Shown here: piece by piece, positions 5,396-30,481 of the stretch
Layout: every line of letters begins with the position of its first letter
Position numbering within the stretch: position 1 is the first letter of the stretch
From: Candidatus Nanoarchaeia archaeon
GTDB taxonomy: Archaea > Nanobdellota > Nanobdellia > Woesearchaeales > DATDTY01
Direction of reading: 5' to 3'
Length of the DNA stretch: 34,557 nucleotides
Assembly: GCA_035290625.1 (NCBI GenBank)
Contig: DATDTY010000015.1
Coordinates: forward strand, 1 to 34,557
Notes under the pieces: model-generated
Seen by the model: the letters and a program-made list of their open reading frames with translations, nothing else
The model's database searches: none
Told to the model about the DNA's origin: nothing
Position numbers and translations under genes: made by a program

Positions 5396-6289
5396 ATGAT
5401 CTGCATCATCGCTTTGATTGTCTTTGGGATTTTAGGCATTTTCAGCGCAGCGCACAGGAAGCTTGCAAAAGAGGCTCTTGATTGCGTTGCCAGGAGAGTT
5501 GTCCTTAGGCCTTGCGAGACAGGCTTTGACCAGAGGATAAAGAGCCTTGTTGTTGGAAAGTTTCTCCGCTTTCCCTGGCTCGCCAGGCCGCTGTACAGGC
5601 ATTTTGAATCCTTTTCCTGGCTCTTGATTGGCCTGATGATTGTAAGCACGTTCTTTATTGCCCAGGGCGCTTACAATTATGCGAAGTATGGGAACTGCAA
5701 TGGCAGCCAAGGAGGATTCTGCATCTATGATTCCCTGGATGGAAAATCTGAGCTAAAAAACCCAGGCCCCGATGACGATCCCGGCATTGGCCCAATCGAT
5801 GCGCCTGTCCAGATTATCGAGTTTGGCTGCTTTAAGTGCTCGTTTACAAGGGAGGCTGACAAGGTTATCTGGCAGGTTATGGAAGAGTATCCGGAGAAGA
5901 TAAGGTTTGTGTACAGGGATTTTCCTCTCTCAGCAAGGCACAGGGGCGCTGTTGATCCCAGCCTTGCAGCAGACTGTGTGCTTGAGCAGGACCAGAGCGC
6001 ATATTGGCAGTACCGCGGCATTCTTTTCCAGAACCAGAATGCGCTGAGCAATGAAGACCTTGCTGCCTATGCTCAAAACATAAGTATAGACCTGGAGCAA
6101 TGGAAAGAATGCTTTGACTCAGGAAAACACCTTGATGAAGTGGAGCATGACTATGAGGATGGATTGGAAGCAGGAGTGTATGGAACACCCACATTCTTCA
6201 TCAACAACCAAAGCTTTGTCGGGCCTCAGAGCTATAAAACGTTCAAGAGGGTAATCGAAAAGGAGCTGGAGAAAGCGGGCGTCACGTGA
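5396..6289 (+). CDS. membrane-anchored DsbA-like thiol-disulfide oxidoreductase
   Basis: This is a 297-residue protein. Two hydrophobic segments (about residues 1-18 and 73-91) form an N-terminal hairpin, with a basic Arg/Lys-rich stretch between them on the expected cytoplasmic side. A DsbA/thioredoxin domain follows from about residue 133. The active site is CFKC (residues 145-148) after the strand VQIIEFG, and the cis-proline loop is GTPTFF (263-268). It should oxidise or exchange disulfides in extracytoplasmic proteins. The window also encodes Cys-rich secreted proteins, a second thioredoxin-fold protein and CcdA, which fits a dedicated extracytoplasmic thiol system. The downstream 176 bases are AT-rich with no evident gene. 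Confidence 0.88.
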   Translation: MICIIALIVFGILGIFSAAHRKLAKEALDCVARRVVLRPCETGFDQRIKSLVVGKFLRFPWLARPLYRHFESFSWLLIGLMIVSTFFIAQGAYNYAKYGNCNGSQGGFCIYDSLDGKSELKNPGPDDDPGIGPIDAPVQIIEFGCFKCSFTREADKVIWQVMEEYPEKIRFVYRDFPLSARHRGAVDPSLAADCVLEQDQSAYWQYRGILFQNQNALSNEDLAAYAQNISIDLEQWKECFDSGKHLDEVEHDYEDGLEAGVYGTPTFFINNQSFVGPQSYKTFKRVIEKELEKAGVT

Positions 6290-6465: not shown

Positions 6466-7683
6466 ATGCTCAACACAGAAAAGATACGAAAGGATTTTCC
6501 GATATTGGAAGGCAAGAACCCTCCGGTCTATTTTGACAGCGCATGTATGGCGTTAAAGCCAAGGCAGGTTGTTCAGGCATTAGAGCGCTATTACTATGAA
6601 TTTCCAAGCTGCCATGGAAGAAGCTCGCATAGGCTTGGAAGGAAGCTGAATGACGAGATTGAAGCCAGCAGAAAAGTGATTCAGAGGTTCTTTGGCTCCA
6701 AGGGAGAGGTTGTTTTTACCAGAAACACAACCGAGGCCATTAATCTGGTAGCCAGCTCATTTCCCTTCAAAAAAGGAGATACAGTCATCACAACAGATAA
6801 GGAGCATAACTCCAACCTGGTTCCATGGATACGATTAGCTCAGGAGAAAGGGATTGTCCATAAGATTGCAGCATCTGATGAGAGAGGCCTTTTTTCTTTG
6901 GATTCATTTGAGAGCCTCTTAAAAAAAGCAGGAAAGGAGGGAGCATCGCATAAAAGTATATTGGTCTCAATGGTGCATACCTCTAACCTTGATGGAACAA
7001 CACTTCCTGCAAAGGAGATCTGCAAGATCAGCCATGAGTACGGAGCTGTTGTGCTTCTAGACGGCGCGCAATCTGCCCCGCATAAGGAGATTAACCTAAA
7101 AAAGATTGATGCTGACTTCTTTGCCCTCTCAGGCCACAAGATGATGGGGCCCACAGGGATTGGATGCCTGATTGGAAAGCCGGAAGCTCTCGAGAAGCTC
7201 TCCCAGTTCATTGTTGGGGGCGAGACAGTAACAAACTCAACCTATGAAGGATACACTCCTGAAAGAATACCGAATCGTTTTGAAGCAGGGCTGCAGCACT
7301 ACGCAGGCATCATAGGGATGGCAGAGGCATGCAGGTATATTGAGGCAATTGGGAGATCAGATATAGAAAAGCATGACCTGGAGCTGAATGGGATCATAAC
7401 CCATGGGCTTAGGGATTCTGTCGATATCCTTGGGCCAGAGGATCCTGCAAAGCGCGGCAGCATCTTCAGCTTCTGGATTAGGGGGATGGAAAGCCATGCA
7501 GCTGGCCTGATGCTTGATGCCCGGAATATCATGGTCCGCTCAGGGATGCACTGCTGCCATTCGTGGTTCAATGCCAGGAAGAAGGAAGGGTCTGTCAGAG
7601 CATCCCTGTATATCCATAATACTGCAGAGGAATGCCATAGGTTTATTAATGAGATAAAAAGAATAAAGCGTATTGCGGGGTGA
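6466..7683 (+). CDS. sufS: cysteine desulfurase, SufS/CsdA type
   Basis: This is a 405-residue PLP enzyme of the class V aminotransferase fold. It takes sulfur from cysteine to give alanine and an enzyme persulfide for Fe-S cluster or thio-cofactor synthesis. The PLP lysine is Lys225 in SGHKMMGPTG. Upstream are TRNTTEAIN (cofactor phosphate loop), the histidine in DKEHNSN and the aspartate in LLDGAQS. The mobile-loop cysteine is in RSGMHCCHSW (Cys363-Cys364), the SufS-type position. SufBCD partners are not in this window. The next gene starts 4 bases after its stop, so the desulfurase and a thioredoxin-fold protein form an operon. Confidence 0.92.
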   Translation: MLNTEKIRKDFPILEGKNPPVYFDSACMALKPRQVVQALERYYYEFPSCHGRSSHRLGRKLNDEIEASRKVIQRFFGSKGEVVFTRNTTEAINLVASSFPFKKGDTVITTDKEHNSNLVPWIRLAQEKGIVHKIAASDERGLFSLDSFESLLKKAGKEGASHKSILVSMVHTSNLDGTTLPAKEICKISHEYGAVVLLDGAQSAPHKEINLKKIDADFFALSGHKMMGPTGIGCLIGKPEALEKLSQFIVGGETVTNSTYEGYTPERIPNRFEAGLQHYAGIIGMAEACRYIEAIGRSDIEKHDLELNGIITHGLRDSVDILGPEDPAKRGSIFSFWIRGMESHAAGLMLDARNIMVRSGMHCCHSWFNARKKEGSVRASLYIHNTAEECHRFINEIKRIKRIAG

Positions 7684-7687
7684 AACC

Positions 7688-8386
7688 ATGAGGTATGATC
7701 AAATAACAGCTGTTGTGCTGAGCCTTGTTTTGGTTATGTTGGTTATCAATTATTTCCAGATCCAGTCAGTCCAGAAGACCTTGAAAGGAACAGGATTGGC
7801 GACTGTTGGAAATACCGACACTGTGAAAGGCGCTGTTCCTGTTGAATTCTATGTGATGAGCCAGTGCCCCTATGGAATCCAGGTTGAGAATGCCATAGCT
7901 CCAGCTTTAGGGTTATTGGGAGATGCTGTTGATTTCAGGGTTGACTACATTGCGGATGGAAGCGGCGGAAGATTTACAAGCCTTCATGGCCAGCCTGAAG
8001 TCGAGGGAGATAAGATCCAGCTGTGTGTCCAGGAGCACTTCCCCCAGGAGTTTATGGATTTTGTCACATGCCAGAATCAGCAGCCTGCAAACCTTGGAGG
8101 AACCGTAGAGTCATGCAGCAGAGCCGCAGGCATTGATTCGCAGAACGTGCTTGCATGCGCTTCAGGAGAGGAAGGAAACATGCTTCTGGAGCAGTCGATT
8201 GCAGCTTCAAGGAATGCAGGAGCGACAGGAAGCCCGACCATGTTCGTCAACAACAAGCCGTATAGAGGAGAAAGAAGCTCGCAGGCTTTCCTGGCAGCAA
8301 TCTGCAATGAGCTTGCTGTGAAGCCGGCTGCCTGTAACAGCATTGTCGGAGGAGAGGCTGCTGCTGTGCAGGGCGGATGTGAGTAG
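7688..8386 (+). CDS. membrane-anchored thioredoxin-fold protein with CPYG motif
   Basis: This is a 232-residue protein with an N-terminal signal anchor (about residues 8-25) and an extracytoplasmic thioredoxin-like domain. The active-site position reads SQCPYGIQ (Cys60), a single-cysteine version of CxxC, and the cis-Pro loop is GSPTMF near residue 193. Several further cysteines occur, including CVQEH, CQNQ, CSRAAG and the C-terminal GGCE. This resembles DsbA/GILT-like proteins of archaea and suggests isomerase or thiol-carrier activity. I chose the ATG at 7688 because GGGGTGA precedes it by a few bases; the in-frame TTG at 7673 overlaps the desulfurase. Confidence 0.8.
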   Translation: MRYDQITAVVLSLVLVMLVINYFQIQSVQKTLKGTGLATVGNTDTVKGAVPVEFYVMSQCPYGIQVENAIAPALGLLGDAVDFRVDYIADGSGGRFTSLHGQPEVEGDKIQLCVQEHFPQEFMDFVTCQNQQPANLGGTVESCSRAAGIDSQNVLACASGEEGNMLLEQSIAASRNAGATGSPTMFVNNKPYRGERSSQAFLAAICNELAVKPAACNSIVGGEAAAVQGGCE

Positions 8387-8471: not shown

Positions 8472-9209
8472 TTACACTTTTTCTTTCTTATCTTCAAGGT
8501 TAGTTCTTTCATCTCGTGCTTTAACCGCCTTATACCACAGTACGTGCTCATAGATGCTTGACCATAACATTCCAAAGGTAAAAGCAAACATCAATTCTTC
8601 CAAGGGCACTCCAAGAAGCAATACTCCTGAAATTGCTGAAAGATTCCACACTTCTTGAACCAAACCAGGATAACCTAGGTTAAACAAAAGGAAAAATCCA
8701 AAATAGAGGGCTAGGAAGGATAACCCTCCAATCCAGACTTTTCTCTTTAGATCAGGCCGGCAGAAAATTGCGGCTATCCCGCCAACAAACATGGCGATAC
8801 TCGCTGAATAAATGGGATTCAATTTAGTAAATAATTGTAATGGAAGGAAAACAATCACCGGAGAAGCTAAAGCAAGTAGATGCAATCTATGTTTTTTTCT
8901 ATGTCTTTCATGCTTGCTTATTTCTTGATGGTTCACTCTAAGTAAAGCTTCATACATGATCGCCCCAATCCCACCAATAGCAAAGCTGAAAATAAAGCTC
9001 TCGATATCAAAGCCGGTTCTACTAGCTAGGTTAAATAAAGATGGAGGGCTCCAGTATTCGGGCACGAACAAATGTTCGGTTAGTCCAAAAGGCGCAGTGA
9101 AAATACTTACCCAAAACATTTCTTTACGGAGTTTTGGCTTAACCAACCAGATAAGCAGCCAAACTGACAGAAGTACTAAAGACGCTGTTAACCATGGATT
9201 CAATGCCAT
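8472..9209 (-). CDS. lycopene-cyclase-domain integral membrane protein
   Basis: This is a 245-residue polytopic protein with about six or seven hydrophobic segments. Two motifs resemble the CrtYcd/lycopene cyclase domain: FWVSIFTAPFGLTEHLFVP near residues 32-50 and GVPLEELMFAFTFGMLW near 205-221, the second matching the conserved P-x-E-E-x-x-F motif. In known members this domain cyclises the ends of lycopene. No carotenoid genes (crtB, crtI) lie nearby and many archaea carry orphan relatives, so the substrate is uncertain. It is convergent with the CPYG thioredoxin gene, 85 bases apart. The C-terminal tail is charged and probably cytoplasmic. Confidence 0.75.
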   Translation of the reverse strand: MALNPWLTASLVLLSVWLLIWLVKPKLRKEMFWVSIFTAPFGLTEHLFVPEYWSPPSLFNLASRTGFDIESFIFSFAIGGIGAIMYEALLRVNHQEISKHERHRKKHRLHLLALASPVIVFLPLQLFTKLNPIYSASIAMFVGGIAAIFCRPDLKRKVWIGGLSFLALYFGFFLLFNLGYPGLVQEVWNLSAISGVLLLGVPLEELMFAFTFGMLWSSIYEHVLWYKAVKARDERTNLEDKKEKV

Positions 9210-9362: not shown

Positions 9363-9470
9363 TTACGGCCTCAGCCATGTTGGGTGCATTATCACCAGCA
9401 TAATTATAAAGAATGCTGCAAATATCCCCCATACCATCGCATTCTTAATTCTCCTTTTGTCTAATGGCAT
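9363..9470 (-). CDS. 35-residue single-pass membrane miniprotein
   Basis: The frame starts MPLDKRRIKNAMVWG, runs through one hydrophobic helix (about residues 11-28) and ends MHPTWLRP. Its ATG at 9470 lies inside the last codons of the DUF2933-like gene (stop at 9461) in another frame, a 10-base overlap typical of translational coupling. AAAGGAG lies downstream inside the gene, so initiation probably depends on the upstream gene. The basic N-terminus predicts that end in the cytoplasm. The His near the membrane exit could touch metal, but that is speculation. Bases 9210-9362 hold no evident gene. Confidence 0.55.
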   Translation of the reverse strand: MPLDKRRIKNAMVWGIFAAFFIIMLVIMHPTWLRP

Positions 9471-9682
9471 TTTTTATCCTCTCCGGGTTTCTTATCGTCA
9501 TGCATATGCCTCATCATAAAGTAATGCGATAGCGGACAGAGCAATAATACCGCCCAAAATAAATAACTTCTGCTTATTCCAAAAAAATATATGGCTCCAA
9601 TTAACAAAAGCAAAGGCACGCCGCAGCACACAATCATCATTAAGGCGTGGTTATGCTTTAATTTGTCTATCCAGTTCTTCAT
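9461..9682 (-). CDS. DUF2933-like small membrane protein
   Basis: This is a 73-residue protein: a short amphipathic start (MKNWIDKLKHNHALMM), two hydrophobic helices separated by GISRS, then LCPLSHYFMMRHMHDDKK and a Cys-His end. The CC near residue 19, LLCPLxHxFMMR and the His/Met-rich tail match the DUF2933 pattern, which is usually found beside copper, mercury or other heavy-metal genes. The start at 9682 is preceded by GGAGGG; the longer upstream frame runs through the divergent promoter and is less likely. It is divergent from the PadR/TRASH regulator and probably controlled by it. Confidence 0.72.
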   Translation of the reverse strand: MKNWIDKLKHNHALMMIVCCGVPLLLLIGAIYFFGISRSYLFWAVLLLCPLSHYFMMRHMHDDKKPGEDKKCH

Positions 9683-9740
9683 GTTTACCCTCCAAACATT
9701 ACGGTAATTGCATTGAGGGTAACCCCTCCTCGATTCACCC

Positions 9741-9778
9741 ATCTATATTTAGATATATCGAAATATTTAAATATTTCG
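9741..9778. promoter_or_regulatory. divergent operator: perfect 20-bp palindrome
   Basis: Bases 9759-9778 are a perfect palindrome (CGAAATATTTAAATATTTCG) covering a TTTAAATA TATA-like core 20-40 bases before the regulator start at 9797. A weaker palindrome, ATCTA-TATT-TAGAT, lies just before it (9741-9754). The position between the regulator and the divergent DUF2933-like gene suggests autoregulation by a dimeric PadR protein that blocks both promoters. Confidence 0.7.
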
Positions 9779-9796
9779 GTCGCTTCTACACAGTAT

Positions 9797-10228
9797 ATGC
9801 AGGTGAAGATCGGAAGTTTAGTCAAGTTTTATACAATTCTTCTGCTTAGTGAAGAGCCCAAGCATGGCTATGACCTTATGAAAGAGCTGGAAGAAACGTT
9901 AGGAAGAAAGATAAGCACCAGCCAAGTATATCCCTTCCTTAAGCTCTTAGAGAAAAATAGGCTCATTAAAATAGAGGAGATAGGGGAAAGAGAGAAAAAA
10001 ATATATCAGTTAACAAAAAACGGGAAAAAATTCGTTAATGTTTTCCTTCAAAGATTCGGGGATTTGATTGATATAGCCGTAGAGCCAAAACTCACAACAT
10101 GCGCGCATTGCAGCTGCAAGGTCTATGAAGGGGGCCATGCTGAACAAATGAAAGGAAACCTATTAAAATTCTGCTGCATGCACTGCGCCAGCGCCTACAA
10201 AAACATGTTAAAGAAACGTTTAAGGTAA
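9797..10228 (+). CDS. PadR-family metal-responsive regulator with C-terminal TRASH-like motif
   Basis: This is a 143-residue protein. Residues 5-80 form a PadR-type winged helix (LLLSEEPKHGYDLMKELEE, then STSQVYPFLKLLEKNRLI). The C-terminal region replaces the usual PadR dimer helix with a Cys cluster: CAHCSC (102-107), His114 and CCMHC (126-130). This resembles a TRASH metal-binding knuckle known from archaeal copper regulators. It probably senses a soft metal and controls the genes around it. The ATG at 9797 lies just after the palindromic operator; upstream codons in the same frame run through it and are rejected. Confidence 0.82.
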   Translation: MQVKIGSLVKFYTILLLSEEPKHGYDLMKELEETLGRKISTSQVYPFLKLLEKNRLIKIEEIGEREKKIYQLTKNGKKFVNVFLQRFGDLIDIAVEPKLTTCAHCSCKVYEGGHAEQMKGNLLKFCCMHCASAYKNMLKKRLR

Positions 10229-10229
10229 A

Positions 10230-10730
10230 ATGAAGCCCTGCTTTGCAAATCTTGACAATAAGCGAATCGGGATGGTTATCAGTGTTATTTCCATTATACT
10301 CCTGCTCATGTTATCCTCATTTTCCTTTAAAATCGCAAGGGCGGAAGCCGCAGCATGTGTCCATCCCGGCAATGTGTCATGCCCCGTAACCGCGCACATA
10401 CCTCCAGCCTCATATTTTGGAGCTGCTCTCCTTGCAGTTATATTCATTCTTGGGATTCGGCTTATGCGAAAAGCTGAAGCTGGTGAAAAAATACGCAAAG
10501 ACGCTGCAGAAAAGGCAGAAGCCGTTGCAAAAGCATTAACAGGAGACGAGAAAAAAGCTTATGAGCTGATTATGGCATCACAAGGGGCCGTTTTCCAGGG
10601 CGAGCTTGTGGAAAAAATGGGCTATTCAAAAATGAAGGTTACAAGAACTCTGGACAAGCTGGAAGGGCAGGGGTTAATCGAGAGGAGAAGGCGCGGATTG
10701 GCAAATATGGTTTTGATAAGATATCGCTAG
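10230..10730 (+). CDS. membrane protein with cytoplasmic winged-helix domain
   Basis: This is a 166-residue protein. The first hydrophobic helix spans about residues 14-33, a short loop with two Cys (CVHPGNVSC) faces outside, and a second helix spans about 62-77. A coiled Ala/Glu/Lys-rich linker leads to a MarR-like winged helix from about residue 103 (KAYELIMASQGAVFQGELVE to GLIERRRRG). Membrane-tethered wHTH proteins of this form are common in archaea. The two outer cysteines could form a disulfide or bind metal and signal inward (inference). The start is one base after the PadR stop, so the two are translated together. Confidence 0.75.
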   Translation: MKPCFANLDNKRIGMVISVISIILLLMLSSFSFKIARAEAAACVHPGNVSCPVTAHIPPASYFGAALLAVIFILGIRLMRKAEAGEKIRKDAAEKAEAVAKALTGDEKKAYELIMASQGAVFQGELVEKMGYSKMKVTRTLDKLEGQGLIERRRRGLANMVLIRYR

Positions 10731-10776
10731 TAACGTTGTAAGCTGAAACTAGTTTTGTTACTATGCCTTATATATT
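10728..10776 (+). promoter_or_regulatory. internal promoter region with inverted repeat
   Basis: TAGTAAC at 10728-10734 (overlapping the stop of the wHTH gene) and GTTACTA at 10757-10763 form a 7-bp inverted repeat with a 22-base spacer. TTATATATT follows at about 10768-10776, about 50 bases before the redoxin start at 10827. A second, regulated promoter inside the metal operon is plausible. Confidence 0.4.
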
Positions 10777-10826
10777 GTATCATCTTGACAATGGCAGAAC
10801 CAAACATAAACCTGAAAGGAGGGATC

Positions 10827-11714
10827 ATGATTTCACAGAAAAGAAACATCATCACAGCATCTTTAATATTGATAATCTTTGTTGGAAGTATTGTCGGATA
10901 TGGCATTATGGATGCGAACCCAGGAAAAAACAGCAAGGACATAAAGAAAACGCCAACTGGGAGCTTTCTTGGCTTGCCAGAGTATCCTGATGATATAACC
11001 ACAATGTTCCTGTGCCCGTGCTGCGGCCAGGCTCTTGACAGGAAAAACATATGCTGTGGCATGGCTTCTGATATGATAGCTTATATTAATTCATTGACTG
11101 GCTCAGGGCTTTCAAAAGACGAAGTCCTTATGAAGGGTGTCGAGAAATACGGCATCAATTCAGTCATAGAGTCAAAAAGATCTGCGGTGCAGGCGATGTT
11201 CGCAAAGCAAAATCCCTCAGTCTTCCCAGAAGGGCAGCTTCTGTTCTCAAATGCCGTAGGCCAAAAGGCTCCTGATTTCACGCTTGAAAGCATCGAAGGA
11301 GTATCAGTAAAGCTAAGCGATTACAAGGGGAAAAACGTGGTCTTATTTTTTACAGAAGGAAGCATGTGCTATCCTGCATGCTGGGACCAAATGAGCGCTT
11401 TTGGAAATGATGAAAGGTTCAATAATGATGAGCTAGTTGTATTTTCAATAACACCCGACCAAAGAAGCGAGTGGCAGAAAATAGTCCAAAAAGTCCCTAA
11501 AATGGCAAAAGCTAAAATTTTGTTTGACTCAGCAAGGGCAGTCTCTTCAGCTTACGATGTGCTGTCGCTTGCATCCTCAATGCACAAGGGCTCTTATCCG
11601 GGCCATACCTATTTTATAATCAACAAGGAGGGGATTATCCGCTATACACTGGACGATCCAAAGATGGCTATAAGGAACGACGAGCTTATTTCTGAGATAG
11701 ATAAGATTGCATGA
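10827..11714 (+). CDS. membrane-anchored CcmH-like/redoxin fusion protein
   Basis: This is a 295-residue protein. A signal anchor (about residues 7-27) precedes a Cys-rich module FLCPCCGQALDRKNICCGM (61-79) that looks like the CPCCG zinc/thiol knuckle of CcmH-type proteins, followed by a helical stretch with KYG. From about residue 144 there is an AhpC/TSA redoxin domain (VGQKAPDFTLESIEG, then FFTEGSMCYPACWDQM with two Cys). It probably uses thiol chemistry outside the membrane, taking electrons from the CcdA protein encoded next. I start at 10827 because GGAGGG precedes this ATG; an upstream in-frame ATG lacks such a site. Confidence 0.8.
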   Translation: MISQKRNIITASLILIIFVGSIVGYGIMDANPGKNSKDIKKTPTGSFLGLPEYPDDITTMFLCPCCGQALDRKNICCGMASDMIAYINSLTGSGLSKDEVLMKGVEKYGINSVIESKRSAVQAMFAKQNPSVFPEGQLLFSNAVGQKAPDFTLESIEGVSVKLSDYKGKNVVLFFTEGSMCYPACWDQMSAFGNDERFNNDELVVFSITPDQRSEWQKIVQKVPKMAKAKILFDSARAVSSAYDVLSLASSMHKGSYPGHTYFIINKEGIIRYTLDDPKMAIRNDELISEIDKIA

Positions 11715-11723
11715 GGGCATAGA

Positions 11724-12581
11724 ATGGAATATGTGCTGGTAATGGCCTCGCTTGTAACCGCCTTTATTGCCGGAGTGGCCGCATTGTTTGCACCCTGCTG
11801 CATAACCGTGCTGCTGCCTGCTTATCTTGGCTCGATTTTCAGGCAGAAGGCTACAATAATGCTCATGACTTTTGTGTTCTTTGCAGGGCTGCTTGCAGTA
11901 TTTTTGCCTCTTGGATTGGGCTTTGCAGCCCTCGGTGTATTGTTCAGCAAATACCATAACTTAATTTTTGTGTCAGGGGGCGTTTTTCTATTGCTTTTAG
12001 GCGCATCAACACTTCTTGGAATGCATTTTTCGCTGCCATCTGCGCATCCAAAAATGAAGGTGCAGGATGCCGCTTCTGTTTTTGTGCTGGGAGTTTTTTC
12101 AGCTTTCGCAACCCTTTGCTGCGCCCCGGTATTAGCTGGCGTTCTGGCTTTGTCAATATTGCCTGGCTCAGTATTCTGGGGAGGACTGTATGCGCTTGCG
12201 TATGTGTTAGGCATGATTTTTCCGCTCTTTATCCTTGCTTATTTTGTGGACAAATCGGACTTAGGCAATAGACTGAGCTTTTTCAAAAAACAGGTTTCAT
12301 ATTTCATCGCAAAGAAGAAAATAGAAGTTACAATTGCCGAGATGATAGCAGGGATAATGTTTCTTTTGATGGGAACGCTTATACTCTACCTTGCAAAAAT
12401 GGGCAAGCTTGCAATGAGCAGCGATTACCAGGTAAGCGTAAATATATTTATGGCTAATCTAACCACTTTGATAAACTCTTTTTTTGTAAAAGGGCCTTTA
12501 GTAGTTTGGTTTTTGTTTGCAGCCGCAGTTTTATTGGCCTTAATTGCATTAATAAAGAGGGGGAAGGGTCAAGTTGACTAA
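11724..12581 (+). CDS. ccdA: CcdA/DsbD-family transmembrane thiol electron transporter
   Basis: This is a 285-residue membrane protein with about seven hydrophobic helices. The redox cysteines lie within the membrane as in CcdA: FAPCCITVLLPAYLG (near residues 23-37) and FATLCCAPVLAGV (near 132-144), each with a CC followed by a helix-breaking proline. CcdA moves electrons from cytoplasmic thioredoxin to extracytoplasmic thiol proteins. The start lies 9 bases after the redoxin stop, so the redoxin fusion is the likely partner. An extra hydrophobic C-terminal helix follows a long loop. It is the last gene of the metal-response operon. Confidence 0.85.
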   Translation: MEYVLVMASLVTAFIAGVAALFAPCCITVLLPAYLGSIFRQKATIMLMTFVFFAGLLAVFLPLGLGFAALGVLFSKYHNLIFVSGGVFLLLLGASTLLGMHFSLPSAHPKMKVQDAASVFVLGVFSAFATLCCAPVLAGVLALSILPGSVFWGGLYALAYVLGMIFPLFILAYFVDKSDLGNRLSFFKKQVSYFIAKKKIEVTIAEMIAGIMFLLMGTLILYLAKMGKLAMSSDYQVSVNIFMANLTTLINSFFVKGPLVVWFLFAAAVLLALIALIKRGKGQVD

Positions 12582-12624: not shown

Positions 12625-12799
12625 GGAGGTTGGTGCAAAATTGTAGGTTGCCATCATTTTGTGAGCAACATCGCTAATGAATAAGCATCGACCTCGAGGG
12701 GATGCTCCATCCGGGACGAATGTCGATTATCACAGACATCTATGCCATGTGCGAACTCGATGGCAATCCGAGCATTGCGAGAATTTCGCACCAGCCTCC
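12625..12799 (+). ncRNA. candidate structured RNA, family copy C
   Basis: P1 pairs 12625-12642 with 12782-12799, 17 of 18 positions. P2 pairs 12646-12655 (GGTTGCCATC) with 12759-12768 (GATGGCAATC), 10 of 10 with one G-T. TTTTGTG (12657-12663) can pair, mostly by wobble, with TGCGAGA just after P2, forming the pseudoknot. GTGAG is at 12661-12665 and AGGGG at 12697-12701. The distal arm CGAC...GTCG is shared with copy D. The copy follows the ccdA stop by 43 bases and may be the 3' part of that transcript; a separate promoter is unclear. It occupies most of the gap 12582-12864. Confidence 0.62.
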
Positions 12800-12864: not shown

Positions 12865-13812
12865 ATGAAAAAGCAACAACCATCAAAAAAGATTAAAACA
12901 AAGAATTACCAGCGGCTTAGTTTTCTTGCTCTTTTTCTGGCGTTTGCTTTGATTCTAGGCAGCTTAATCGGAAATGATAAAGACAGCGACAAAGCAGGCC
13001 TTGCCTCAAAGAGCAGCACTGATCACTCTACTGATACTTCTCATTCTACTGAAGTGAGAATCTGTGAGGCTCCGTGTATACTCTCATTTAATCCTTCTCG
13101 ATGGACGCCTCCTCAAGGAGTTACTCAGCCAGATGATGTCGGCAGGGAGATTGCACGCAGTCTCGGAATGACAGGAGAAGGATGGAGCGAAGGTGTTATG
13201 TCTATATGCCGCAGAGAGTTCTCTGAATCAGTTTATGATGTAATGAGATGTCGTCTTTCTTTTGTCACTATTTCAGGGATCGGAGATCGAAATAAAGACA
13301 CCGACAAAGCAGGCTTTGCTTCAAAGACTACTACCCATTCAACTGAGGTATCCACTGAAGTACCGACCTGCCAGGCTCCTTGTATACGCCATTTAGACCC
13401 ATCGGATCCCTTCCAATGGCAGCAACTAAGAGAGATTACTCAGCCAGATGATGTCGGCAGGGAGATTGCACGCAGTCTCGGAATGACAGGAGAAGGATGG
13501 AGCGAAGGTGTTATGTCTATATGCCGCAGAGAGTTCTCTGAATCAGCTGATGTAACGGGATGCTATCTTTCTTTTTTCAATATTGCATTGGAAGGAGCTT
13601 GCGTAGGCGGCCAAAGCCCTTCCGATGTAGCTTGGAACACGCTTCAGGCAAACGGCATAGAAGACAGAAACGCATATAGCGGTACAGAAGAAACTCAGCG
13701 TTGTTTAAACGCCCGCAGAGATTGCCAGGAGGCCTGCGGTTCTATCCCAGACGGTGAATTACTAAACACGTGCCTTACTCGGCTTAAAACCATAAACCCA
13801 GCCTGCGGATAA
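12865..13812 (+). CDS. secreted Cys-rich protein with duplicated domain
   Basis: This is a 315-residue protein with a basic start (MKKQQPSKKIKTKNYQR) and one hydrophobic segment (about residues 18-36), a signal peptide or anchor. A Ser/Thr-rich linker follows, then two copies of a domain of about 105 residues with CEAPC or CQAPC, TQPDDVGREIARSLGM, MSICRREFSES and another Cys. A third, different Cys-rich tail follows (CVGGQSPSDVAW, CLNARRDCQEACG, CLTRL, PACG). The even Cys spacing suggests extracytoplasmic disulfides, making it a possible client of the thiol enzymes in this window. I do not recognise the domain. A TATA-like TTAAATATT lies near 12815. Confidence 0.7.
   Translation: MKKQQPSKKIKTKNYQRLSFLALFLAFALILGSLIGNDKDSDKAGLASKSSTDHSTDTSHSTEVRICEAPCILSFNPSRWTPPQGVTQPDDVGREIARSLGMTGEGWSEGVMSICRREFSESVYDVMRCRLSFVTISGIGDRNKDTDKAGFASKTTTHSTEVSTEVPTCQAPCIRHLDPSDPFQWQQLREITQPDDVGREIARSLGMTGEGWSEGVMSICRREFSESADVTGCYLSFFNIALEGACVGGQSPSDVAWNTLQANGIEDRNAYSGTEETQRCLNARRDCQEACGSIPDGELLNTCLTRLKTINPACG
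13121..13545 (+). repeat. exact 110-bp direct duplication within the Cys-rich gene
   Basis: Bases 13121-13230 and 13436-13545 are identical over 110 bases and offset by 315 bases, which is 105 codons, so the frame is kept. The flanking parts of each unit match only at the protein level. This means either a recent duplication or gene conversion of an older duplicate restricted to the 110-bp core. Confidence 0.9.
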
Positions 13813-22831: not shown

Positions 22832-25800
22832 CTACCTCTCCGGAGTCGGAGTCACTGTAGGAGTAGGCGTTCTTGTGACCAAAGGAGTGAGAGGCGTTGG
22901 AGTGCGGTAGAACTCCTGGCTTGCCGGAGGCTGCTCGACAATGTAGTTAAGAGCACCAACTGTATCTACGCGGACAAGATTCTTGGTTATACCTGATGCG
23001 TCCGGGCCTCGGCCATAGACTGTGAAGTTGTAATTTCCTGACTGAGGGCCCTGTCTGAAATTCGGATGGATAAGCCTGTTTCCTGGTGCCCAGACAAGCA
23101 TCCCTTCTCCCTCAAGAGGCCCCGTCCTTCCAAGATAGACGCCGTTGGCATACACATGGTGGTCTGTAAACACCTGGCCAGGCTGCCGGAGATCAAATCG
23201 AATCACGATCTGCCTGTCATTCTGGGGATCTGTGTCTGAGCCTCCTGCAAGGTTCTCCAGGCTCTGCTCTGTGTCTGTGATTGCAACTCCATAATAGCCG
23301 ACAGGGCCTGTATGCAGGCTAACAACAGGAACCAGAGCATTGGATGTGTTCCGTGCAAGCCCATACAGATCAAACTCGTGTTCTGATCCGAACTGAGGCC
23401 CATTCCTGAAAGCAGGGACGATATTCGTGTTGCCAGGCTCCCATTCAAGGGAATCCACAACGCCAGAGTGTGTCTGGCCAAAGTAGCTCCTGACTCCGTT
23501 TTGGATGATGTAAGCATGGAAGTTCTCAATATCAGCTCTTGCAACACTCCATTGCAAGCTGAGCTTGCGCGCCAATGGAGAATCAAGGTCATAGTGGCCT
23601 GATAAATCAACAATAGAGTCAGCATGATCTGTCACAATGAATGTGTCTGGAGTAAACTCGTAGGTTACAGGCCCGGCATCGATGCCAGAAAGAGGATGCA
23701 GCACATTATTCTCATCTGCTACAAGAGGGAATATCCTGAAACTGATGTTTCCTGGAACAGGAGCTCCTGCTGAAAGAGGATTTGTCTCAGACCACTCAAA
23801 GCTGGTTGCTTCTCCATCTCCTGTTCTACCGATATAGATGTAAGGGCCTCCATTAACTGAAGCCTGAAAATGGATGTCTGCAAGGCCATCAAGATTGCTG
23901 AATTTCAATGCGAGGCTTCTGTCAGCAGCAGTGTCTATGTCTACTTGTCCAGTCAAGTCAATAAGGCTTTCAAGATTGTCTGTAATGATTGGGTTTTGGA
24001 TTGGAGGCACGGGTGTTGGGGTTGGAGTGGGCTGTTCAACAATATAAGAGAGGGTTCCAGACTCAAGGGGCTGCTCCGGAACATTCCCATGTAAGCCAAA
24101 CACCCTGAATTGCCAAATTCCCGGATCAAGATTCTGCAAAAGGATAGATGTTGCATTTCCATCGCCTGTCCTTGCAAGGTAGCCATAGTTGCCTCCATTC
24201 AAAGAGCCATAGACATGATGGTCAGTAAGAGTATTGACTCCAAGATCCCACATTAATGCAAGAGTCCTTTCATCGAATGGGTCTTTGTCTTCTCCTCCTG
24301 TAAGGTCGAGGTCTGAGCCAAGATTGTCAGTGATTCTGAGATTTGACAAGGCTGGAGGAAGGGTAACATTATAGGCAATGACTGGAGAGTCAATAGGATT
24401 AAGGGGAACGTTTCCCTGCAATCCAAACACCCTGAACTGATAGGTTGCGGGCGAGTCAGTACCTGGCATCCACGAGAAAGATGTATCAGTTCCATTTCCT
24501 GTCTGTCCAAGGAATTCATAAGGACCGCCATCCTTTGATCCATAGATATGAGCATTTGTTGTAGGCACAGGAAGATTCCATCTTACAACGAGCTCTCTGT
24601 TATTTATAACATCCTCATCATGCACGATAGCCTCAAGGCTAGCCAGAGTATCAGTCACAATCACTGATCCCGCAGGCAAAGGAGTATAGGTTGGAGTTGC
24701 TGTTGGTGTGTTAGTTGGAGTATTTGTTGGAGGAACAGGTGTTGGAGGTAGTGGAGTGTCAGTTGGCAGGCCTGGAGTGAAAGTGGCAGTGGGTTGAAGT
24801 GTATTTGTAGGAGTTGGAGTGTAGGTTGATGTCGGAAGTGGCGTACGTGTATATGTGGGTGTTGGAGTTGGAACAGGAGTGTTGGTTCTGGTATAGGTTG
24901 GAGTTCGGGTTGGTGTTCTGGTGGATGTGGGTGTGGATGTCGAGGTTTGGGTTGCTGTGTATGTAGGTGTGCTTGTTGGAGTTGCAGTGTATGTTGATGT
25001 TGCTGTAGCCAGGCTAGTTGCGGTTGCTTCTAAAGTAGGAGTTGCTGTTGGATTCAGAGGATTGATAACAAGATGGATGTTTTGCGTGTCTGAATAATCG
25101 CTTCCGTCATAAGCACGGATTGTGAAGTTAAAGTCTCCTGGAGCTGAGGTATTCAGGCGGTATTCTCTAATAAGCAGAGTTCCGACTGGCAGCTGTGGGT
25201 TGATTGGGGTCGCCCGATCAGAATCTGAAAGGACGATCTCAAGCAGCGACGGCCCTTTGTCAAGATCCCTGGCCGTAGCTGTAATTTGGCGTACATCTCC
25301 CTGAGTCAAAACATACTCAGTATCGCGAGGAAAAATGCCTAAGGTAGGATGCACATTGCCTGGCAAGGGGATGTTTGTTGCTGTTGCTGTAGCAGTTGCC
25401 GTACTTGTCGGGATAGGAGTGTCTGTAGGAATAAGCGTTGGTGTTGGAGTGTACGTTGGAGTGTCTGTCGGCAAAGGAGTGTTTGTAGGAGCAAGAGTGT
25501 AGGTTGGCGTAGCTGTGAATGTTGCCGTTGGAAAAGGCGTGCTGGTTGACGGAACAGGCGTGAATGTGCTGGTTGGCTGAGACGGTACTGGAGTGTTGCT
25601 TGGAGTGAATGTAGAGGTTGGCTGAGGTTGCGGGGGGACTGAAGTAAACGTGCTTGTCGGCTGGGGAGGAACTGGCGTGAAGGTTGAGGTTGGGATGGGA
25701 GTGTTTGTGTAGGTAGATGTTGAAGTCGGAGTGTTTGTGGACGTGGCAGTTGCTGTAGGAGTTGGCGTTGGAGTGGGAGCAGGGATGGTGATGTTCTGCG

Positions 25801-26728
25801 CTGTGCTTCCCCCAATAGTATGGATGACCTGTTCAAGAGCCGGCTCGTTATTGATGTAGATTCTAAGTGCCTCTCCGTTAACTCCGCCCTCCTTATTCTC
25901 TATTTCAGGAGTATTTGGATCATCAAGGGTAGCAGGATTATCAGAAAGCGCAAGAACATTATAATAACCTGATGTTGTTGTTGGAGAGTCCTGCGTGTAG
26001 TTCTGTCCAGTTGGGCCTTTAATCCTGACTTCAAGGCCGTCAGGCACTGCTCCGCCATGATAATTCACAAGGCCGTAGAATCTGGAAGGCGCTTGAGGAA
26101 CATCAGGCGGTGCTGTCGGCGTTGGCGTGATTAAGGCCGTGGCTGTTGGAACGAGAGTATATGTGGCGGTTGGAAGAGGCGTACTTGTATATGTAGGTGT
26201 TAACGTATTTGTAGGAACTGGCGTGAATGTGCTTGTTGGAGCTGCTGTAAATGTGGGGGTGGCAGTATACGTTGGGGTTGGCAGTGGCGTGTTTGTTGGA
26301 GTAAATGTTGGAGTGTCTGTTGGAACTGGAGTATTTGTGGAGGTTGCTGTTGGCGTAGGAGTGGGGGAAGGGATGGTAATATTAACAGATGAACTCCCTC
26401 CAATCGAATGGGTTACGGTCTGGGTTGCAAGCTCATTGTCGATGTAGATTTGTAGTGTCTCTCCTGAAAGCCCTCCTTCCTTTTGGGGTGTGTCAGGATC
26501 ATCAGAAAGCGCATACACATTATAGTAGCCGCTGGCTGTTGTCGCTGAGTCTTGGGTGTAATTCTCTCCAGCCGGGCCTTCAATCCTGATAGCAAGACCA
26601 TCAGGAACAGCACCTCCGTGATAATCAACAAGGCCGTAGAAGCGTGAAGGTTGTTGAGGAACTGATTCAGCATTCCTCACTGCATACATAGAACCGAAGG
26701 TGAGAGCAGTAAGTGCTTCCAGAGTCAC
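22832..26728 (-). CDS. giant secreted Thr/Pro-stalk surface protein
   Basis: This is a protein of about 1298 residues from the GTG at 26728. Two N-terminal domains of about 95-110 residues ([18 protein letters not shown]; about 28-122 and 213-316) are separated by Thr/Pro/Ala stalks of TPT type. An Ig/cadherin-like domain follows (about 456-563), another stalk, then five beta-domain repeats (about 686-1270), each opening with VTD or ITD and many containing GxTGxG and FxVxG. It ends in TPTP repeats with no membrane anchor. Dense Thr and NxS/T sites suggest glycosylation. The true start may be the ATT at 26767 (see findings). It may serve in adhesion or S-layer attachment. Confidence 0.85.
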
Positions 26729-28001: not shown

Positions 28002-28032
28002 CCGTAGGGATACCATTTGCGAAGGGGGAAGC

Positions 28033-28168
28033 ATGGTCAACGTAGACATTGATGATACACTCTATAATGAGATCAAGGAGATTGTAGAGAAAGACAGGCT
28101 GAGCTACTCCTGCATCAGGCACCGGCAAGATGGCCTTTGAGAAGGTATCGGAGGTTAAGAAGGAATGA
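28033..28168 (+). pseudogene. frameshifted small ribbon-helix-helix gene, copy 1
   Basis: The frame starts MVNVDIDDTLYNEIKEIVEK and stops at 28140 after 35 residues. A second frame then continues GKMAFEKVSEVKKE to the TGA at 28166-28168, which looks like the natural C-terminus, so a one- or two-base indel probably broke the gene around 28112-28120. The intact relative is at 30341. The start follows GGGGGAAGC. The shifted frame's stop overlaps the ATG of the Bro-N gene (ATGA), so the original pair was translationally coupled. Confidence 0.7.
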
Positions 28169-29133: not shown

Positions 29134-29269
29134 TTAGATCAGCCACGTATCTCTCCTTATATAATTTGCTGATGAAATTGGTTTTCGTTTTGATTCTTGA
29201 GTGAAGAAAAAAACAACAATCTTTAAATAAACGCATCCATTCCGCATAAGAAATATGTTTGGGGGAAGC

Positions 29270-29371
29270 ATGGTCAACGTAGACATTGACGAGAAGCTTT
29301 ACACTGAGATCAACGAGCTTGTTGGAAAAGACAGGCCGCTCAGATGGTCGTGGCAGAACGGAAAAACTTAA
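29270..29371 (+). pseudogene. truncated ribbon-helix-helix gene, copy 2
   Basis: The frame starts MVNVDIDEKLYTEINELVGK and diverges after DRP, ending in RWSWQNGKT at 29371, 33 residues against 46 in the intact copy at 30341. The first 20 codons, the GGGGGAAGC leader and the TATA region match copy 1. The 3' end has been replaced by sequence leading into the operators of the nucleotidyltransferase gene. Confidence 0.65.
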
Positions 29372-30319: not shown

Positions 30320-30340
30320 GACAGGAGAGTTGGGGGAAGC

Positions 30341-30481
30341 ATGGTCAACGTAGACATTGACGAAAAGCTGTATGCTGAGATCAAGGAGATTGTTGAGAAA
30401 GACAGGCTGAACTATCCTTCCATCCGGCATTTCGTGCATAAGGGATTATTGGAGAAGGTGAAGAATGGGGGGAAGGGATGA
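30341..30481 (+). CDS. small ribbon-helix-helix protein, intact copy 3
   Basis: This is a 46-residue protein, MVNVDIDEKLYAEIKEIVEK then DRLNYPSIRHFVHKGLLEK and a basic tail KVKNGGKG. The order beta-strand, helix, YPSIRHFV, helix matches a minimal ribbon-helix-helix DNA-binding protein. It is the only intact member of the three copies and starts after the same GGGGGAAGC. Its last 20 bases recur at the end of the chimeric frame at 31930-32004, just before the sugar dehydrogenase. It probably acts as a regulator or antitoxin; targets are unknown. Confidence 0.7.
   Translation: MVNVDIDEKLYAEIKEIVEKDRLNYPSIRHFVHKGLLEKVKNGGKG

Follow-up and report, generated by a model that had tools for sequence, protein, structure and literature searches.

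In Pyrococcus furiosus, the regulator CopR joins a helix-turn-helix (HTH) to a C-terminal TRASH domain, is encoded divergently from copA, and has a semi-palindromic site (TTNNCAWWWTGNNAA) directly upstream of the B recognition element and TATA box; CopR proteins regulate in both directions (PMC7830388). In Sulfolobus, ArnR and ArnR1 are membrane-bound HTH transcription factors without a kinase, and ArnR, which comprises an N-terminal HTH, a HAMP domain, a sensor domain, and C-terminal transmembrane segments (TMs), controls archaella (PMC6396743). A third described arrangement places a CcdA-type conduit next to an exported partner with the AhpC/TSA fold, as in CcdA-TlpA/ResA and CcdA-Etrx. Here, we describe a locus that encodes counterparts of all three. 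It lies at positions 9363-12581 of a contig of 34,557 bp (C15, analyzed over its entire length and hereafter termed the window) from a Woesearchaeota-type metagenome-assembled genome (MAG) of 1.37 Mb in 84 contigs. The nearest named loci are from Candidatus Woesearchaeota groundwater MAGs. The locus probably encodes a copper-responsive (soft-metal) two-sensor module that drives extracytoplasmic thiol/Cu(I) handling. Its features are as follows, where wHTH denotes a winged helix-turn-helix:

9363-9470, minus strand: putative membrane miniprotein of 35 amino acids (open reading frame only), with a 10-nt overlap with the 3' end of the DUF2933 gene
9461-9682, minus strand: DUF2933 protein (Pfam PF11666, 25.6 bits; cut-off 21)
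9748-9763, unstranded: candidate PadR-TRASH operator TTTaGATATATCgAAA, in the gap of the divergent gene pair
9759-9778, unstranded: perfect 20-nt palindrome CGAAATATTTAAATATTTCG in the TATA-box region, its center ~28 nt before the PadR start
9797-10228, plus strand: PadR winged helix with a C-terminal TRASH-like Cys cluster (PadR-TRASH; PF03551, 58.3 bits; PF24273, 26.5 bits)
10230-10730, plus strand: membrane winged-helix regulator (membrane wHTH; PF24034, 41.6 bits)
10745-10756, unstranded: candidate membrane wHTH operator GAAACTAGTTTT (consensus GAAACTAGTTTC)
10768-10777, plus strand: TATA-like element TTATATATTG of a putative separate redoxin-ccdA promoter, kept in the related locus L022
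10827-11714, plus strand: predicted extracytoplasmic CcmH-like/AhpC-TSA-fold fusion redoxin (PF00578, 76.6 bits; possible upstream start at 10791)
11724-12581, plus strand: CcdA/DsbD_TM-type membrane electron-transfer protein (homologs score 35-43 bits to DsbD_TM; cut-off 27)

An earlier, sequence-only reading of this DNA had placed the same genes at these positions, including the two outer cysteines of the membrane wHTH, and our analysis agrees. It had overlooked the second regulatory palindrome (10745-10756), and the gene combination that it called novel is not unique in its order: PadR-TRASH, membrane wHTH, fusion redoxin, and CcdA follow one another identically in two other Woesearchaeota MAGs.

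TRASH regulators, membrane one-component regulators, and CcdA-redoxin pairs are already known kinds of system. The first regulator resembles CopR/CopT in its HTH with a C-terminal TRASH domain, its shared divergent promoter, its box next to a TATA element, and its association with copper genes, but differs in the family of its HTH (PadR), its box (TTTnGATATATCnAAA), and its divergent gene (DUF2933 rather than copA). The second regulator shares with ArnR/ArnR1 a membrane-bound HTH without a kinase. Unlike in ArnR, a TM-loop-TM unit precedes a C-terminal DUF7343 wHTH, an outer Cys/His loop is the candidate sensor, and the putative targets are soft-metal genes. The CcdA-redoxin pair departs from CcdA-TlpA/ResA and CcdA-Etrx in having vicinal cysteines at both CcdA positions, a CxxxC rather than CxxC motif, two invariant histidines, a CcmH-like fusion, and a copper-gene context. 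Literature searches on the box, on DUF7343, and on PadR with TRASH returned no match. As far as the literature was searched, PadR-TRASH, the membrane Cys-loop wHTH, and the operators of both count as new variants, as does the vicinal-Cys CcdA, and metal sensing in DPANN archaea is undescribed. The membrane sensor and its switch recur among related archaea and appear to be undescribed as well.

Regulators and their candidate operators

Pfam identifies a PadR winged helix in the first regulator (cut-off 27 for PF03551), and its C-terminal cysteines (C105-X20-C126-X3-C130) have TRASH spacing. The spacing C-X(19-22)-C-X3-C is present in 29 of 31 PadR-TRASH homologs, and six cysteines are conserved in 28-30 of the 31. 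On these features of its sequence, PadR-TRASH is a candidate cytoplasmic metal sensor.

The motif TTTnGATATATCnAAA lies directly before the TATA box upstream of PadR-TRASH genes. Its core dyad, GATATATC, is at 9752-9759 in the window and occurs in exact form within 110 nt upstream of 16 of 27 PadR-TRASH genes compared to 19 of 679 other genes in the same loci (binomial ~1e-18, a value that takes no account of relatedness or of the divergent partners among the 19). When both strands of the 1.37-Mb genome were searched, GATATATCNAAA was found at this place only; similarly, GATATATCnAAA has a single place in the genome, the PadR-TRASH/DUF2933 gap of the window. Divergent genes that share this first box include those for ATPase, YHS, SHOCT-type, and DUF2933 proteins, and in one locus (L035) the box lies between PadR-TRASH and redoxin-ccdA. 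A natural control is provided by PadR-TRASH genes from one genus (L068, L070, and L075), which have neither an ATPase neighbor nor the box. TTTnGATATATCnAAA is the likely PadR-TRASH operator, and binding of PadR-TRASH to it is strongly suggested.

The sequence-only reading had centered the divergent genes on the perfect palindrome. The palindrome exists and is by far the longest in the window, where the next ones have 7-bp arms, but the likely regulatory dyad is the adjoining GATATATC. The palindrome itself, at a length of 16-20 nt, is kept at this position in four other genomes (G048, G122, G023, and G172), while most other PadR-TRASH orthologs have a plain TATA box there. Because most orthologs keep the TATA box alone and GATATATC is the part that recurs, we rejected the palindrome as the PadR operator. 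It is for the most part the TATA region from the promoter of PadR-TRASH and belongs to the core promoter, next to the operator; the PadR transcript would be leaderless.

The membrane wHTH gene begins 1 nt after the PadR stop codon. Its product comprises TM1, an outer loop (CVHPGNVSCP) with Cys43 and Cys51, TM2, and a cytoplasmic DUF7343/MarR wHTH (41.6 versus 27.6 bits for PF24034, DUF7343; 34.5 versus 24.6 bits for MarR). The outer cysteine pair was detected by regular expression in 23 of 25 relatives, and the pattern C-x-H..C in 11 of the 25. Between this gene and the redoxin gene stand, in order, GAAACTAGTTTT, TTATATATTG, and a Shine-Dalgarno sequence, and the relative L022 has the exact palindrome GAAACTAGTTTC in the same gap. 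A scan of the discovery loci placed this 12-mer just 3' of the membrane wHTH gene and ahead of redoxin, CCG-domain, DUF411, and other genes.

As an independent test of GAAACTAGTTTC, the regulator was searched for in 371 genomes and 27 previously unused loci were examined. The exact 12-mer was present in 20 of the 27, with a one-mismatch copy directly downstream in three more. In the same loci, 119 palindromes of identical half-composition had 0 occurrences, and no other palindromic 12-mer occurred in more than two loci. Genes with starts 24-94 nt beyond the box, often at 38-41 nt, mostly encode HMA, CCG-domain, cupredoxin, Cys-rich, or Met-rich proteins, with a few of unclear type. The sole exact copy in the genome studied here is 2 nt past a second membrane wHTH paralog on contig C74, with a DUF411 gene next. 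In all three members with a KLS-type recognition helix, the GAAACTAGTTTC 12-mer is missing and TTCTGAAC/GTTCAGAA stands 14-15 nt past the stop codon. No box accompanies the one KVK-type member whose C-terminus is truncated (L023). The main argument for the membrane wHTH as the binder is that box and recognition helix vary together, and this pairing is likewise strongly suggested. In L059, L083, and L022, TTCTGAAC/GTTCAGAA downstream of KLS-type membrane wHTH genes precede CCG-domain genes.

Both regulator-operator pairs are amenable to in vitro tests, for which no culture of the organism is needed. One of them involves a transmembrane one-component regulator with related proteins in 240 of the 371 genomes sampled from the phylum.

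The CcdA-redoxin pair and its copper-gene context

The CcdA of the window has vicinal cysteine pairs at C25-C26 (APC25C26) and C132-C133 (C132C133AP). Although it has no direct Pfam match, its homologs exceed the DsbD_TM cut-off, and its membrane redox cysteines stand in the PC and CxP motifs that mark CcdA/DsbD_TM proteins. Among CcdA proteins encoded next to the redoxin, the second redox position is CC in 33 of 33 cases, as is the first in all 32 that were readable. Generic CcdA proteins, including the canonical one on contig C1 of the same genome, have a single cysteine.

The fusion redoxin consists of an N-terminal TM, a CcmH-like domain (CPCCG..CCGMA), and a peroxiredoxin-fold domain with CYPAC, His253, and His260. 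The fold was predicted by AlphaFold2 (predicted local distance difference test score 86) and matches AhpE with Z 21.7 and 1.9 Å over 148 residues; Etrx2 (4hqz) and ResA are among the sequence matches. A tblastn search of plasmids returned peroxiredoxin/TlpA-type proteins alone, at ~30-34% identity. The CxxxC motif and both histidines are invariant in 41 of 41 members of a set whose retrieval favored the motif, and in 11 of 11 matches of at least 45% identity, a largely unbiased set (CYPSC allowed). The peroxiredoxin active site (PxxxTxxC and a catalytic Arg) is altered, with Tyr at the Thr position and His260 at the Arg position in alignments, and a plain peroxiredoxin was rejected on this ground. 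The CxxxC probably derives from a thioredoxin-type CxxC, given that the same His accompanies CxPC in a sister group.

A first structure-based search of the PDB was filled by peroxiredoxin matches, and the N domain was then predicted alone. Its top PDB match was CcmH (2hl7), at a weak Foldseek E of 1.5 (Z 5.2, 3.2 Å over 63 residues), and its match to CcmH PF03918 was similarly weak (14.2 bits; cut-off 25). Comparison by hhalign with two CCG-domain families of copper islands gave 86.6% to one and 7% to the other, and the N domain is probably a distant relative of both unnamed families. These two exported families (c6 and c7), which have a CCG...C-x-H domain and no Pfam match, recur in copper islands of candidate phyla radiation (CPR) bacteria and DPANN archaea. 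They are mutually homologous (hhalign 96.9%) and occur in the L025-L054 and L059-L085 neighborhoods (e.g., L027:9246-10193 and L089:6477-7037) and in the genome studied here (C1:22786-23493).

The gene-neighbor survey that the sequence-only reading had proposed was carried out by fetching redoxin and PadR-TRASH loci, calling their open reading frames, and clustering the products. The redoxin-CcdA pair and PadR-TRASH each recur among genes for P1B ATPases, CsoR, DUF411/CopG, YHS, cupredoxin, and DUF2933 proteins. P-type ATPases with CPx/HMA motifs, found in 44 loci, form the commonest neighbor family. A P1B-type ATPase is encoded within 8 kb of 24 of 31 PadR-TRASH genes and 21 of 35 redoxin genes, and 31 of the 35 redoxin loci have at least one ATPase, CsoR-family, YHS, DUF411/c12, DUF2933, or CCG-domain gene within 8.5 kb. 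CsoR-family (Trns_repr_metal) genes are near the redoxin in many loci. The Cu+ P1B-1 signature (CPC, N(x6)YN(x4)P, MxxSS) is present in 30 of 42 neighbor ATPases longer than 550 amino acids. In one genome (G142, L076), PadR-TRASH, ATPase, CcdA, redoxin, DUF2933, and CCG-domain genes form a single stretch. Six CPR genomes with the redoxin yielded no PadR-TRASH.

The absence of a metal ATPase pointed out by the sequence-only reading is true for the contig, but the genome encodes one on contig C30 with a YHS-HMA-HMA-CPC architecture and all three Cu+ P1B-1 motifs, and the absence is therefore a property of the contig and not of the genome. DUF2933 genes are within or near the copper islands of relatives, and a published parallel is found in Alteromonas, where DUF2933 is beside copper ATPase and cupredoxin genes (PMC8478169). 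The DUF2933 protein of the window is a small membrane protein with Cys and His, and its gene is preceded by a GGAGGG Shine-Dalgarno sequence. The copper-gene neighbors support the suggestion, made in the sequence-only reading, of soft-metal sensing tied to extracytoplasmic thiol chemistry, and copper is the likely signal. The CcdA variant and redoxin family are common to CPR bacteria and DPANN archaea and are linked to copper genes, and this allows a function to be given to several unnamed families of exported, Cys-rich proteins.

Proposed mechanism and rival explanations

The genes, conserved residues, copper-gene context, and both boxes with their statistics are features of the sequence; the pairing of protein and box, copper as the metal, the redox and copper biochemistry, and the sign of regulation are what we infer in the following scheme. 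Inside the cell, PadR-TRASH would occupy TTTnGATATATCnAAA, next to the TATA box of its own gene and to the promoter of the divergent DUF2933 gene, and Cu(I) on the TRASH cysteines would probably displace or switch it. The two-TM wHTH may use its outer Cys/His loop to sense copper or thiol state on the extracytoplasmic side and would control the GAAACTAGTTTC box ahead of the redoxin-ccdA promoter. Because both boxes adjoin TATA elements, redoxin-ccdA could be driven by PadR read-through and by its own promoter, which would combine cytoplasmic and extracytoplasmic signals. As output, CcdA with its vicinal cysteine pairs would serve as a membrane electron conduit that feeds the exported CcmH-like/peroxiredoxin-fold protein, which may keep external copper-binding cysteines reduced and/or handle Cu(I) at its CxxxC-His site. 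Export of Cu(I) would fall to the P1B-1-type ATPase on the other contig. A bolder version, which we regard as doubtful, is that the membrane wHTH represents a new, widespread class of archaeal transmembrane sensors of outside metal and that the double-vicinal-Cys CcdA moves Cu(I) itself to the CxxxC-His redoxin. If CcdA moved Cu(I) and not electrons alone, this would constitute a thiol-based copper relay independent of an ATPase.

Several observations weigh against a copper-responsive module. The identity of the metal rests on association, and the TRASH score is 0.5 bit below the PF24273 cut-off of 27. Many redoxin loci were fetched by patterns that included CYPACW, which inflates the apparent conservation; the unbiased sets agree and are smaller. 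The window copy of the second box, GAAACTAGTTTT, has one mismatch and rests on its position and on the exact copy in L022, and one-mismatch matches to GAAACTAGTTTC in the rest of the genome do not exceed chance (5 versus 10 in the control). Another regulator could bind this box. The membrane wHTH family is also broad, as its presence in 240 of 371 genomes indicates, and copper sensing is therefore not required of every member.

CcdA with an AhpC/TSA-fold partner is a classic thiol-reductase pair, and the operon could serve general extracytoplasmic disulfide exchange or oxidative stress (CcdA-TlpA/Etrx or peroxiredoxin type) with an incidental metal context. Two DsbA-like genes 1-4 kb upstream in the window are compatible with such a role, as are PrxQ-like and canonical ccdA genes at other places in the genome. 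We consider this role possible but unlikely given the replaced peroxiredoxin Thr and Arg, the consistency of the copper neighbors, and the placement of the GAAACTAGTTTC box ahead of copper-type genes in unrelated loci. A signal other than copper, either mercury or a different thiophilic metal (Ag, As), with the vicinal cysteines of CcdA serving metal transit as in Mer membrane proteins, seems less likely again. MerT and MerF have vicinal cysteine pairs in a membrane protein, as does the window's CcdA. Archaeal mer contexts with TRASH domains are mentioned as well (PMC3466566, PMC8261052). However, no mer gene is among the recurrent neighbor families, and those that recur are P1B-1-signature ATPases, CsoR-family, DUF411, cupredoxin, YHS, and DUF2933 proteins.

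A cytochrome c maturation or assembly module composed of the CcmH-like domain, CcdA, and redoxin is highly improbable. The resemblance of the N domain to CcmH in fold and, faintly, in sequence speaks for it, but the genome lacks the haem-copper oxidase gene COX1, the N domain has extra conserved cysteines (CPCCG..CCGMA), and in L025 and L054 this domain is instead fused to a DUF1573-type domain. The redoxin may also resemble SCO/SenC copper chaperones, given its peroxiredoxin/thioredoxin-type fold, CxxxC, and downstream His, but when aligned by eye its His stands ~2 positions away from that of Sco. A role in cytochrome oxidase/SCO assembly was rejected given the lack of COX1 and given that SCO was not among the matches listed in the sequence and fold searches with the redoxin.

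Other features of the window

The 35-amino-acid open reading frame next to DUF2933 had no match in Pfam or NCBIfam, and tblastn of the loci fetched by then revealed no homolog. Upstream of the operon, two DsbA/thioredoxin-like exported proteins (5396-6289 and 7673-8386) flank a SufS-type cysteine desulfurase, and a lycopene-cyclase-domain protein (8472-9209) adjoins the operon and has homologs near redoxin-ccdA in four other loci. Downstream, an intergenic element of 173 nt (12625-12796) is 93% identical to a copy on contig C1 of the same genome (L112:6708-6880), representing a dispersed repeat. It is followed by a gene for an exported Cys-rich protein (12865-13812) that contains an internally duplicated segment (117 nt at 98% identity; ~310-nt unit). 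A Thr/Pro-repeat protein of 1298 amino acids (22832-26728), probably a surface protein, coincides with strong local GC skew. Lastly, a repeat of 76-98 nt is present three times (28024-28121, 29259-29336, and 30330-30429) between small gene pairs that by eye are MNT/HEPN-like.

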